Part shown: positions 29,408 to 33,364 of the stretch, piece after piece
Layout: the number at the start of each line of letters is the position of its first letter
Position numbering within the stretch: the stretch's first letter is position 1
NCBI RefSeq assembly: GCF_918698245.1
Contig: NZ_CAKKMS010000002.1
Span: 434,001-498,000 of the forward strand
From: Pedobacter sp. Bi126
Lineage (GTDB): Bacteria > Bacteroidota > Bacteroidia > Sphingobacteriales > Sphingobacteriaceae
DNA: 64,000 nt
Reading direction: 5' to 3'
Position numbers and translations under genes: made by a program
Notes under the pieces: model-generated
Database searches by the model: none
Seen by the model: the letters and a program-made list of their open reading frames with translations, nothing else
Told to the model about the DNA's origin: nothing

Positions 29408-30166
29408 ATGAAGAAAGTAATCTTATTTATCGCAATATATACAAGCATTATCACCGGATGCGCTCCCAGAAGAGATCTTGTATACTTTAGTAACCTGGCC
29501 AAACAAACCAGCGAAGTTAAGCTTCAAGGTCAGGAAGTTAAAATTCAGCAAAACGACCTTTTAAGCGTAAGCATAAACAGCTTAAATCAGGAGTCGAATG
29601 TTTTATTTGCTGTTAATACCAAAAATGCAGGCGCTGAAAACAATTATAAAGTAGAAGGTTACCGGGTAAGTAAGGATGGAATGATTAACCTGCCCGTTGT
29701 AGGTAACGTTCGCCTGGAAGGTTTAACCATTGAGCAGGCACAAGCTGCCATATCGAAAGAATTGGATAAATATGTTAAAAAACCGGTAGTTGACGTTCAG
29801 TTGGTCAATTTTAAAGTAACAGTAATTGGCGAAGTAAACCGACCATCAACCTTTACTGTACAGGGAGATAATATTAACCTCTTAGAAGCATTAGGAATGG
29901 CGGGCGATATGACCGTTTATGGCAAAAGGGAAAATATTTTAGTGATCAGACAACAGGATGGTCAAAGGGTGATGAAAAGACTTAACCTGAACAATCAGGA
30001 TGTGATGGATTCTCCATTCTTTTACCTGAAACAAAATGATGTGGTATATGTGGAGCCTGATAAATCAAAAGCGATTGAATACAGTCCCAATACACGTATT
30101 ATGCCAGTGGTAATTGCTTCTATATCAGCAGTTGCAGTATTAATCACAGCTGTTCTTCGTCGATAA
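29408..30166 (+). CDS. Polysaccharide export outer-membrane lipoprotein (Wza type)
   Basis: A 252-residue lipoprotein; the lipobox is ITGC (Cys18). The central part is a polysaccharide biosynthesis/export domain (LSVSINSLNQES, GMINLPVVGNVRLEGLTIEQA) followed by an SLBB domain (VTVIGEVNRPSTFTVQG). A C-terminal helix VIASISAVAVLITAVL may cross the outer membrane as in Wza. It is the first gene of the locus, 22 bp before the co-polymerase gene, and forms the exit channel for the polymer. Confidence 0.93.
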   Translation: MKKVILFIAIYTSIITGCAPRRDLVYFSNLAKQTSEVKLQGQEVKIQQNDLLSVSINSLNQESNVLFAVNTKNAGAENNYKVEGYRVSKDGMINLPVVGNVRLEGLTIEQAQAAISKELDKYVKKPVVDVQLVNFKVTVIGEVNRPSTFTVQGDNINLLEALGMAGDMTVYGKRENILVIRQQDGQRVMKRLNLNNQDVMDSPFFYLKQNDVVYVEPDKSKAIEYSPNTRIMPVVIASISAVAVLITAVLRR

Positions 30167-30188
30167 ACGTCTCTTAAAACATTATATC

Positions 30189-32477
30189 ATGCTTAAACAA
30201 AGTACAAATAGTGGCGCAAAAGATTTTGCAGAAACTATGACAAGATTTGCCAGAAACTGGCACTATTTCTTAATCAGTATCATTATTTCTATAGCTGCTG
30301 TATATGCTTTTCTATACATTACTCCACCAAAATATAAAGTGAGCAGTACACTTTTAATCTCTGATGATAAAAATGGTGCAGCAATGTCTAATAGTACCGC
30401 TTTTAGTGATCTTAATATGTTTCAAACGGTTAAAACGGTTGATAATGAAATTGAGATCTTAAGGTCGAGAGATCTGATTTTTAAAGTATTGAAAAAACTA
30501 AATCTAGAAACGGCTTACTTTAAAAAAGAGGGGATTAGAGAAAAAGAGCTTTATGGCAAAACGTCCCCACTTGTAGTTACTGCTATCAGTTTAAAAAATG
30601 GTGCTTACGCAAGAAAAATTAACATTTCTTATCTGGATGAAATCTCTTACATCATTCAGGATAGCCTAAAAACAAATATTGTAAAGTATGGCGATACCAT
30701 TAATACTAAAAACTACGCAATTAAAATAGATAAGGGACCAGCATATAAAACCGAATTTGGTAAAATTAGACTTCAGTTTAAAAACTTATATAAAATGACC
30801 GAGGCTTATAACCTGGTTTCATTAAAAATAGTTCCGGTTGTTAAAGATGCCAATACCATTACCATTAGTTTGAACGATGTGGTTCCTCAGCGGGGAATTG
30901 ATATTCTTAACGATCTGATCGAAACTTACAACATCAATAACGTCAACAATAAAAATACCATTGCCCGTAATACCATTAAATTTATCGATAACCGCCTAAA
31001 ATACCTGGTTGCAGATCTAACAGGTACTGAAGAGGACGTAGAAAACTACAAGCAACAAAACCGTGTTACCGATGTTAATATGGATGCGCAGATGAATGCT
31101 GCACGTTCAGGAGAGTATAATCAGTTGCTGGAAACATCATCAGTGCAGCTGAGGATATTGCGGTCAATCGAAAATTATTTCAGAGGCAAACAAAGTCAAT
31201 ATAACCTTGCTCCAAGTGCAATGGGCTTAAAAGACCCGATTCTGAATTCATTGATTTCAAAATTTAACGATCTTCAATTGGAAAGAAATAGGATGTTACG
31301 TACCGCTAATGCAGAAAATCCTTTAGTGCTAAACCTTAATGAGCAGATAGCAACCTTAAAAACCAATATCTTAGAAAACTTATCTAGTATTAAACAAGGT
31401 TTCGTTATTGAAAGAAACAACCTGAGCGCCAACTACTCTCAATTCGATAATAAAATTAAATCTGTACCTACTATAGAGCGTGGTTTATTAGAAAGAAGCC
31501 GCGAACAAAGTGTAAAATCGGGTTTATATAAATATTTACTGCAAAAAAGAGAGGAAACTGCATTATCACTTTCTGCAACCGTTCCAACTTCACAGGTGGT
31601 AGATAAACCGGCTTACAATACTATTCCTAATAGCCCTAAACAACCACTTTTATATCTGTGTGGATTCATTTTTGGTTTTTTTGTTCCAGCTGGAGTAATT
31701 TACGCCAAAGGATTTTTCAATAACAAGGTACAGGATGCCAGTACTATTGAGTTAACCGGTGCCAAAATGCTTGGTGAACTTTCTCATAACCTGGATAAAA
31801 GCACCATCGTTTTTCAAAAAGACAACCGTTCTACCATATCAGAGTTGTTTAGGTACATCAGAATGAATTTAGGACTGATGTCTAACAATATCGAGAATAA
31901 GGTAATGTTGGTTACCTCGAGTATGAAAGGAGAGGGTAAAACATTCTTTAGCGTAAATCTGGCTACTACATTAGGCATGCTTGATAAAAAAGTTGTTGTA
32001 CTGGAGTTCGATCTAAGAAAACCTGACCTCTTGAATAAAGTTGGTTTAAAGCAAACTAACGGGTTAACCGATTATTTAATTGGCGAGTCTGTATTAGATG
32101 ATATTATTAAACCTACCAGTGTTTCAGATAATATATGGGTTATTGGATGCGGTCAATCGCCTGAAAATCCTGCCGAAGTAATGATGAGCCCTAAAATGGA
32201 TTTATTGTTTGATGAACTGAAAGAAAGATTCGATTACATCATTATCGATACTTCGCCGGTTGGCCAGGTGGCTGATGCCTTTAGTTTGGCCGAATATGCC
32301 GATGTAAGCATTTACCTGGTGCGGTATAATTATACCAATAAATACCAGCTCGCCATATTGAAAGATATTTGCGAAAACAATAAGCTTAAAAATCCGATGG
32401 TTGTTTTTAACGATGCCAAACGGGAGAAAAGCCAGAAATACAGCTACGGTGGTTATGGATATGCCATGGCAAACTAA
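30189..32477 (+). CDS. Polysaccharide co-polymerase / tyrosine autokinase (Wzc type)
   Basis: A 762-residue inner-membrane protein. Wzz domains with membrane helices near residues 28-48 and 490-510 enclose a long periplasmic coiled coil (about 260-430). The cytoplasmic BY-kinase has Walker A SMKGEGKT (Lys584), Walker A' VVLEFDLRKPDL and Walker B YIIIDTSPVG. The C-terminus has a tyrosine cluster (KYSYGGYGYAMAN) for autophosphorylation. It sets chain length and couples polymerisation with export. No Wzb phosphatase gene is seen in the locus. Confidence 0.95.
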   Translation: MLKQSTNSGAKDFAETMTRFARNWHYFLISIIISIAAVYAFLYITPPKYKVSSTLLISDDKNGAAMSNSTAFSDLNMFQTVKTVDNEIEILRSRDLIFKVLKKLNLETAYFKKEGIREKELYGKTSPLVVTAISLKNGAYARKINISYLDEISYIIQDSLKTNIVKYGDTINTKNYAIKIDKGPAYKTEFGKIRLQFKNLYKMTEAYNLVSLKIVPVVKDANTITISLNDVVPQRGIDILNDLIETYNINNVNNKNTIARNTIKFIDNRLKYLVADLTGTEEDVENYKQQNRVTDVNMDAQMNAARSGEYNQLLETSSVQLRILRSIENYFRGKQSQYNLAPSAMGLKDPILNSLISKFNDLQLERNRMLRTANAENPLVLNLNEQIATLKTNILENLSSIKQGFVIERNNLSANYSQFDNKIKSVPTIERGLLERSREQSVKSGLYKYLLQKREETALSLSATVPTSQVVDKPAYNTIPNSPKQPLLYLCGFIFGFFVPAGVIYAKGFFNNKVQDASTIELTGAKMLGELSHNLDKSTIVFQKDNRSTISELFRYIRMNLGLMSNNIENKVMLVTSSMKGEGKTFFSVNLATTLGMLDKKVVVLEFDLRKPDLLNKVGLKQTNGLTDYLIGESVLDDIIKPTSVSDNIWVIGCGQSPENPAEVMMSPKMDLLFDELKERFDYIIIDTSPVGQVADAFSLAEYADVSIYLVRYNYTNKYQLAILKDICENNKLKNPMVVFNDAKREKSQKYSYGGYGYAMAN

Positions 32478-32544
32478 AGCTACCTTGTTTTAAAAGAGAA
32501 TACCTTGCCCTTTACCAAATAAACGTCCCCAAACGATTTAATTC

Positions 32545-32613
32545 TGTTTACAAACAATAAGGCTGCGATGCTTAAACTGCGCATCGATTAAAGTCATTAG
32601 CTGTTTGCAAACA
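32545..32613 (+). other. Nested palindromic element
   Basis: TGTTTACAAACA (32545-32556) and TGTTTGCAAACA (32602-32613) are each (near-)palindromic and pair with each other with one mismatch. Inside, CGATGC (32566-32571) pairs with GCATCG (32581-32586). The whole can fold into one large hairpin or two small ones, a possible switch. Confidence 0.6.
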
Positions 32614-32673
32614 ACTCTTAATTAGATTACCTATTTGCCCCAAAAAGCAAAATGAGATTTAAAATAAAAATTG

Positions 32674-32702
32674 TCATGTAAGTGATATAGCGAAGCTGTA
32701 TC
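32674..32702 (+). repeat. 29-bp direct repeat with hairpin, copy 1
   Basis: The unit begins TCATGTAAGT and ends AGCTGTATC. Within it GATATAG pairs with CTGTATC around a CGAAG loop (7 bp, one G-U). An identical copy begins 74 bp downstream. Both lie in the leader of the NusG-like gene. Confidence 0.9.
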
Positions 32703-32747
32703 CGGCCGACTAAATAAAGCTTCTTAGCTGAAAAAAACAGATACCTA

Positions 32748-32776
32748 TCATGTAAGTGATATAGCGAAGCTGTATC
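32748..32776 (+). repeat. 29-bp direct repeat with hairpin, copy 2
   Basis: Identical in all 29 positions to the copy at 32674-32702. It ends 39 bp before the ATG of the NusG-like gene. Confidence 0.9.
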
Positions 32777-32815
32777 AAATTGCCTAAAAAATAAATCTAT
32801 AACCTCATCAAAAAA

Positions 32816-33364
32816 ATGGAATCTACAATTAACATCAAGCCCTCGTTCGCAAAAAAATGGTTTGTGATCTATACACGCCCACGTTGGGAGAAAAAAGTTG
32901 ACCGTTTGCTGCAAGAGCAAGGTTTCGAATCTTTTTGTCCTGTTCGTCATGTAGAAAATCAATGGGCCGATAGAAAGAAAATAGTTAGCCTTCCGCTTTT
33001 TACCGGATATGTATTTGTGAAAATTGATGAGCGTGAAGGTTACAAAATCAGGTATACACTCGGTGTTTTAAACTTTATTAATTACATGGGTAAGCCTGCA
33101 GTAGTTCGGGATAGTGAGATTGAAAAGTTGAAACACATTATGGATACCTACAATGATGTAGATGTAGTGAGTTTAACCGGTGTTTCCAAAGGAGACCGTG
33201 TTCGGATCAGTAATGGTCTCTTTCATAATCAGGAAGGAGAGGTGATCCAGATTCAAGGTAAGCATGTTTTAATGTCATTCGATCATTTAGATTGTGCTTT
33301 AGTTACCAGAGTGCCAATAAGCAACTTAACATTAACCGTAAATACACAACAACATTATGTATAA
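32816..33364 (+). CDS. UpxY-type NusG-like transcription antiterminator
   Basis: A 182-residue NusG paralogue. The NGN domain covers residues 14-105 ([31 protein letters not shown]) and the KOW domain about 125-165 ([22 protein letters not shown]). In Bacteroides, UpxY proteins bind RNA polymerase on their own capsule operon and let it read through early termination. Its place as the third gene, directly behind structured leader RNA, fits such a role. Its last 8 bp overlap the next gene, so the two are translationally linked. Confidence 0.9.

Follow-up and report, generated by a model that had tools for sequence, protein, structure and literature searches.

Two copies of an ops-like element in the leader of a Pedobacter upxY gene are probable loading sites for the UpxY antiterminator

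The leader of a NusG-like gene in Pedobacter sp. Bi126 contains two identical repeats which, judged from sequence comparison, are very probably two copies of an ops-like loading element for the antiterminator UpxY, and this element probably lets the NusG-like protein board RNA polymerase so that a long gene cluster is read to its end. In the window, i.e. the whole stretch of 64,000 nt that was analysed, the 29-mer TCATGTAAGTGATATAGCGAAGCTGTATC is found exactly at 32674-32702 and 32748-32776 of the plus strand, with starts 74 nt apart, as the initial annotation had described and as sequence reading and a repeat search confirmed; the 24-nt cores of the two copies lie at 32677-32700 and 32751-32774. 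The leader was likewise correctly delimited: the previous ORF, a wzc/Wzz-like gene, ends at 32477 and upxY starts at 32816, leaving 338 nt (32478-32815, plus strand), and copy 2 ends 39 nt ahead of upxY. It had been proposed that occurrence at many unrelated genomic sites would speak against an antiterminator signal; a search of the whole genome (6,291,746 bases) allowing up to three mismatches found the 29-mer only at these two leader sites, and the guess survives. For the 20-nt core of the element, 100 shuffles of the window gave 0.00 occurrences expected by chance.

The gene upxY (32816-33364, plus strand) encodes a UpxY-family NusG paralogue of 182 aa, the presumed reader of the element. 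The protein scores 139.3 bits on the NCBIfam model NF033644 antiterm_UpxY (cut-off 100) and matches Pfam NusG at 1.6e-21, while it stays below the respective cut-offs of the RfaH, LoaP and NusG models; ten Pedobacter records encode it with 65-99% identity. Among proteins of solved structure, RfaH comes closest to it (profile E about 1e-16), and the invariant residues W50, D52 and R53 of UpxY align around RfaH R40, which contacts upstream DNA according to a section of the structural report (PMC11001881). An AlphaFold model of UpxY (12 rows) reached a pLDDT of only 38.9 and was discarded as unusable. By Pfam, the neighbours of upxY are wza-like (Poly_export) and wzc/Wzz-like genes located upstream in the same cluster (29408-32477, plus strand) and a UDP-glucose/GDP-mannose dehydrogenase gene, not upxZ, after it, which is the setting of a polysaccharide operon. 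The presumed target is the same-strand run of mostly polysaccharide-type genes after upxY (33357-57826, plus strand), which continues to about 57.8 kb; co-transcription is presumed, and apart from the dehydrogenase most of these genes were named by eye from ORF translations.

The leader itself is likely untranslated RNA. A promoter and terminator scan of 32400-33000 returned no terminator and one 9-of-12 promoter-like match, which lies inside upxY (shuffle mean 1.7); the Bacteroidota -7 promoter motif TANNTTTG was not found within 32479-32680, and an Rfam scan of the window gave no match. When the leader was aligned with those of nine relatives, the element copies stood out as islands of conservation. 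Besides both copies, a block in the 5' half of the leader, AAACGTCCC...TTTAATTC (32521-32547), is largely invariant in ten relatives.

From 99 copies in the family, the conserved unit was determined as the 24-nt element TGTRASYGRNNTRGCGAAGCYNTR, which reads T G T R A S Y G, R N N T, R G C G A A G C Y and N T R; its conserved parts are TGTRASYG, RGCGAAGCY and the final Y-R step. Copies were counted with at most 3 mismatches in 16 fixed positions together with GCGAAGC or GCGGAGC, or with at most 1 mismatch, and because the invariance of positions 14-20 comes partly from this selection, anchor-free and free-loop counts were made as well. G14 is present in 99/99 copies, which were partly selected on it. 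Positions 21-24 were not used in finding the family copies, yet Y23 occurs in 98/99 and R24 in 91/99, and the two occur together in 91 copies, the background of a Y-R step in these leaders being 0.25; position 24 is A in 66 copies, G in 25 and T in 8. A phylum-wide scan with these positions left free gave a similar picture in the 30 loci that were read (Y21 in 30, Y23 in 29, R24 in 28), also for the 22 loci absent from the earlier class search (22/22, 21/22 and 20/22, respectively). Between sub-types of the element (L084 and class-level loci), the block TGTAAGTG / TGTGACTG / TGTAACTG / TGGGACTG varies, as do positions 9-13, and this variation might encode which UpxY reads which leader.

In the family, occurrence of the element follows that of UpxY. 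The strict pattern TGTAAGTGNNNTNGCGAAGC gave 76 matches in 53 of 301 genomes and the reversed pattern none; every one of these 53 belongs to the 84 genomes in which the best UpxY match is strong (E up to 7.4e-37), and the 217 others contribute none (Fisher P 2e-37, related genomes not being independent). With a threshold of 1e-10, 183 of the 301 genomes have a UpxY match, i.e. many of the 217 have a weaker one, and these may use the GACTGA form of the element. The expectation that the element lies near UpxY-like genes was borne out at family level, where 72 of the 76 strict matches have a UpxY gene no more than 2.5 kb away; each of the remaining four (L136-L139) is found shortly before a polysaccharide export gene that heads a cluster. 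Among 11 loci found by protein, ten have the element, with one copy in L006 and L015 and two in each of L007-L014; it is absent from the Chitinophagaceae locus L016. The full family set comprised 90 UpxY places with E down to 2e-36 (G047, G059 and G079 were left out for an in-frame stop, G077 was kept despite one), and 75 of these genes have the element, in 99 distinct copies.

At class level, a looser form of the pattern gave 43 matches in 35/395 class genomes, with 0 in the control. When 30 of these sites were read for context, 17 had a UpxY gene within the flank; of the other 13 loci ten were tested, and in eight of them a polysaccharide or nucleotide-sugar gene comes first or second after the element, in one a winged-helix-like gene and in one an aldehyde ferredoxin oxidoreductase gene (L161). 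A profile built from 20 UpxYs found the protein in 128/395 class genomes. The resulting class set of 125 places, from which G362, a partial gene, was left out along with eleven genes belonging to the family of the window, has a relaxed element near 50 UpxY genes, in 18/34 families, and a weight-matrix scan of the same regions gave 48 matches above 9 bits versus 6 in reversed sequences. The GACTGA form TGKGACTGANNNNGCGRAGC gave 67 matches in 49/395 phylum genomes (control 1); of 30 sites read, 8 of which were already in the class search, 14 have a nearby UpxY. For ten phylum sites with no UpxY nearby, the next gene is a UDP-sugar dehydrogenase in three, an export gene in one, a GH88 gene in one (L342) and a cytidylyltransferase-like gene in one, and it has no Pfam match in four. 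The element is thus widespread but not universal: it is absent from 15/90 family and 75/125 class UpxY regions, and therefore either not every UpxY uses it or it is placed elsewhere. A k-mer search for an alternative element in the 75 class regions returned mostly A-rich words and nothing interpretable.

The genome of the window has a second UpxY gene (L149, outside the window), and a third, sequence-related element of GACTGA type, TGTGACTGAGGGGGCGAAGCTGTG, adjoins it at C1:1095416-1095439. This element lies 3' of upxY, between it and an asparagine-synthase-like gene. Three more matches in the same genome, each with 3 mismatches, do not exceed what the reversed control gives (6 matches). The order upxY, element, asparagine-synthase-like gene recurs in L180-L182.

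As to the structure formed, the initial annotation had described a 7-bp stem (GATATAG/CTGTATC) with a CGAAG loop; the fold predicted here is instead one of 8 bp with a GAA triloop (GATATAGC-GAA-GCTGTATC), and the outer stem did not prove to be a conserved feature. Six contiguous pairs outside GC-GAA-GC are found in 15 of the 22 copies from the closest orthologues and in 4 of the 77 copies from less related UpxY loci. This comparison bears directly on the most serious alternative, in which the nascent leader RNA would form the functional hairpin, either binding UpxY or aiding polymerase escape, in the manner of the dfn hairpin read by LoaP. The copy in the window does fold well as RNA (-7.3 kcal/mol, z -2.65), and the outer arms pair in most copies from the closest orthologues; however, two other natural variants have z values of -0.50 and -0.91, not clearly better than shuffles, and the strongly conserved TGTRASYG is mostly outside the stem. 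When the 3' arms of the 77 copies were re-dealt, pairs 12-22 to 8-26 were no commoner in the real copies (2.86 versus 2.80; 171/1000 shuffles as high), whereas contiguous pairs counted from 13-21 outwards were slightly in excess (2.36 versus 2.14; 36/1000 shuffles as high), and this slight excess is due to pair 13-21. We consider an RNA hairpin improbable as the functional form.

Pair 13-21 holds in 98/99 family copies (AT 44, GT 34, GC 20, AC 1) and in 47/50 class-level copies, and is the sole varying pair that does so. The two inner G-C pairs never vary, partly owing to the selection of copies, and thus covariation cannot test them; the copies are moreover related by descent, which limits any reading of covariation. 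An isolated 12-nt strand gave -0.3 kcal/mol in folding software, no better than shuffles, though its parameters are not known to carry a bonus for GNA loops. As DNA, GCGAAGC is described as an ultra-stable mini-hairpin with a Tm of 78 C, one of two types, with GNA or GNNA loops on G-C pairs, in a part of the report on such structures (PMC4686876). In the window this core occupies 32690-32696 in copy 1 and 32764-32770 in copy 2. Within 300 nt before UpxY matches, GCGNAGC occurs 77 times in sense, 2 in antisense, 1 reversed and 2 as complement in the family set, and 32, 1, 5 and 1 times, respectively, in the class set. In a free-loop count, for which only the upstream half and the two G-C pairs were fixed, 144 of 151 triloops are GNA (GAA 131, GGA 12, GTA 1); at least two of the seven others are antisense readings of true sites, and the reversed control gave one match. 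Hence the core loop of the element varies as GNA, almost only on the operon strand.

Strand and placement bear on two further alternatives. At 48 of the family genes, 73 copies are on the strand of upxY, and at 26 genes 26 copies are on the opposite strand. The opposite-strand copies point at a divergent operon, the first gene of which is wza-like by eye in L179, the sole one read in detail; the element therefore appears to mark the operon to be read through, not upxY itself. A double-stranded operator or promoter part bound by an ordinary transcription regulator would agree with a short conserved intergenic sequence and with the winged-helix-like gene that often adjoins the element in class-level loci. 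Against it, the element has a single orientation relative to the operon, the relaxed form in the 125 class regions being found 50 times in sense and 0 in antisense (0 reversed, 1 complement), and it lies between genes of same-strand clusters, where it is expected to be transcribed. Moreover, 23-137 nt separate the end of the last copy's 20-nt core from the start of the matched protein stretch, which is not always the start codon, in the 48 same-strand leaders of the family, and in five class loci (L155, L159, L160, L171, L177) the element ends 3-11 nt before the upxY ATG, a distance too short for an operator located upstream of a promoter. An operator is thus quite unlikely.

Less likely still is that the element acts on the upxY mRNA as a signal for translation or autoregulation. 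Its position shortly ahead of upxY in the 48 same-strand cases might point to this, but 26 genes have the element on the opposite strand, four family sites precede an export gene with no upxY nearby, and in the second locus of the same genome the element follows upxY and precedes the asparagine-synthase-like gene. That the exact duplication inside one leader is a functionless dispersed repeat or mobile-element remnant is hardly credible, with two sites in 6.29 Mb, conservation islands against the leaders of nine relatives, and an element kept between distant UpxY loci.

The same-strand leaders also show that pairing of copies is not essential. The initial annotation had suggested a paired recruitment or pausing site for UpxY; recruitment or pausing is supported by the finding of an orientation-specific element with an ops-like core in polysaccharide leaders at or near UpxY genes, but 26 of the 48 leaders have a single copy, 19 have two, one has three and two have four, with spacings from 47 to 177 nt. 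Such variable copy number and spacing speak against a rigid dimer site and for copies that each give a separate chance of loading.

For the preferred reading, a loading element read as DNA by UpxY, the following mechanism is proposed. RNA polymerase would pause at each leader copy as at a consensus elemental pause, with G14 of the 24-nt element at -10, Y23 at -1 and R24 at +1, and the predicted 3' end of the paused transcript (-1) is T32699 in copy 1 and T32773 in copy 2. Another register considered at first (C15 at -1, G6 at -10) was dropped because G6 is C in 11/99 copies and the conserved positions 23 and 24 fit the second register; in this second register +1 is more often A than G, unlike in the classical consensus pause (G-10 Y-1 G+1). 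In the open bubble, the non-template RGCGAAGCY is predicted to fold into a DNA mini-hairpin in which two G-C pairs close a triloop, GAA here and GNA in general, and on this hairpin the NGN domain of UpxY would dock. UpxY would also touch the upstream duplex, where TGTRASYG would be located at about -23 to -16. Loaded UpxY would then ride with RNA polymerase and suppress premature termination across the polysaccharide operon of ~25 kb, and several copies would offer several chances of loading.

In the ops register of E. coli, G2 is at -10, T11 at -1 and G12 at +1, and in the register proposed for the element its GCG start together with Y-1 and R+1 would line up with the consensus pause in a like manner. 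Further likeness to ops (GCGGTAGC, GGCGGTAGCGTG) lies in a G-C based non-template mini-hairpin core, which is predicted for the element, and in a NusG-paralogue system acting on long operons, RfaH being the closest solved relative of UpxY. The ops hairpin seen by cryo-EM is given as G2:C9 and C3:G8 plus G4:A7 in a section of PMC11001881, i.e. GC-GGTA-GC of the GNNA type, and the C3:G8 pair matters for RfaH recruitment according to an excerpt of PMC5995543. In contrast to the GNNA tetraloop of ops, the element has a GNA triloop; it has in addition the conserved block TGTRASYG upstream of the bubble, it is present in 1-4 copies per leader, and its reader would be UpxY, the gene of which mostly lies inside or beside the target. 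By this comparison the element and ops would represent the two mini-hairpin types, GNA and GNNA. The ops sequence GGCGGTAGNNTG itself is not at the site, and its two one-mismatch matches elsewhere in the window are at chance level (1.35 expected).

Closest in protein family (NF033644) is the UpxY/UpxZ system of Bacteroides capsule operons, reportedly described by Chatzidaki-Livanis in 2009 and 2010, in which an antiterminator gene also heads a polysaccharide operon; the present locus differs in having a UDP-sugar dehydrogenase gene in the place of upxZ. Saba 2024 is said to have addressed recruitment for Bacteroides after the 2020 analysis cited below, and Bacteroides UpxY reportedly recognises the paused polymerase via exposed non-template DNA and upstream duplex DNA. 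In a portion of PMC12691694, Saba 2024 is given as the source for a bridge that UpxY makes to duplex DNA upstream, and a passage of PMC7593976 mentions two B. fragilis UpxYs without UpxZ. LoaP of Bacillus velezensis, again a NusG paralogue with a leader-encoded recruitment signal, associates with the dfn RNA hairpin without a detectable pause, as far as the same portion of PMC12691694 goes; the element differs from dfn in that its outer RNA stem is not conserved, the outer pairs being at chance beyond close orthologues. None of the titles and abstract openings listed in the literature searches describes this element, and a Bacteroides version may already be in print; in the one listed paper that contains GCGAAGC and also names UpxY (PMC12691588), these letters belong to a PCR primer.

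More broadly, we are inclined to think that Bacteroidota carry a widespread ops code apart from the proteobacterial one. This code would be bipartite: one block, TGTRASYG or also TGGGACTG, would lie in the upstream duplex, and the other part would be a DNA mini-hairpin with a GNA triloop, placed at a consensus pause; UpxY would read the code in cis and in trans. Ops and the element would then embody one principle in two forms, a NusG paralogue reading a GNA or GNNA mini-hairpin extruded from the bubble. The signal also suggests that recognition by way of a DNA hairpin in the bubble is used repeatedly and is not an oddity of E. coli. A passage of a 2020 analysis (PMC7593976) called it unknown by what means NusG paralogues are recruited when their genes lie inside the operons they act on, and a 24-nt signal with coordinates, strand, predicted pause nucleotide and loop rule makes the recruitment question testable well beyond Bacteroides. 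A simple genome scan for the element also flags operons that UpxY is likely to target, even where no upxY adjoins them.

In class polysaccharide loci (L155-L177, e.g. L164:913-1434 on the minus strand, L169 and L171), a winged-helix-like gene of ~176 aa (MLxxLISSKTRIKLLLKFFLN...) with weak PaaX-like and ArsR-like matches, below cut-off, recurs immediately next to the element. Outside class Bacteroidia, in two genomes of a single genus (L335:1500-3018 and L336:1500-3020), the element is ~70 nt upstream of a contractile tail-sheath gene; hence the element may serve more than polysaccharide operons, and operons of contractile-injection type may also be under a UpxY-like antiterminator. The two sheath genes have no Pfam match; they match the PHROG tail sheath at E 5.5e-16 and 6e-17, and that of L335 matches solved sheaths in phmmer at E 2.2e-15.
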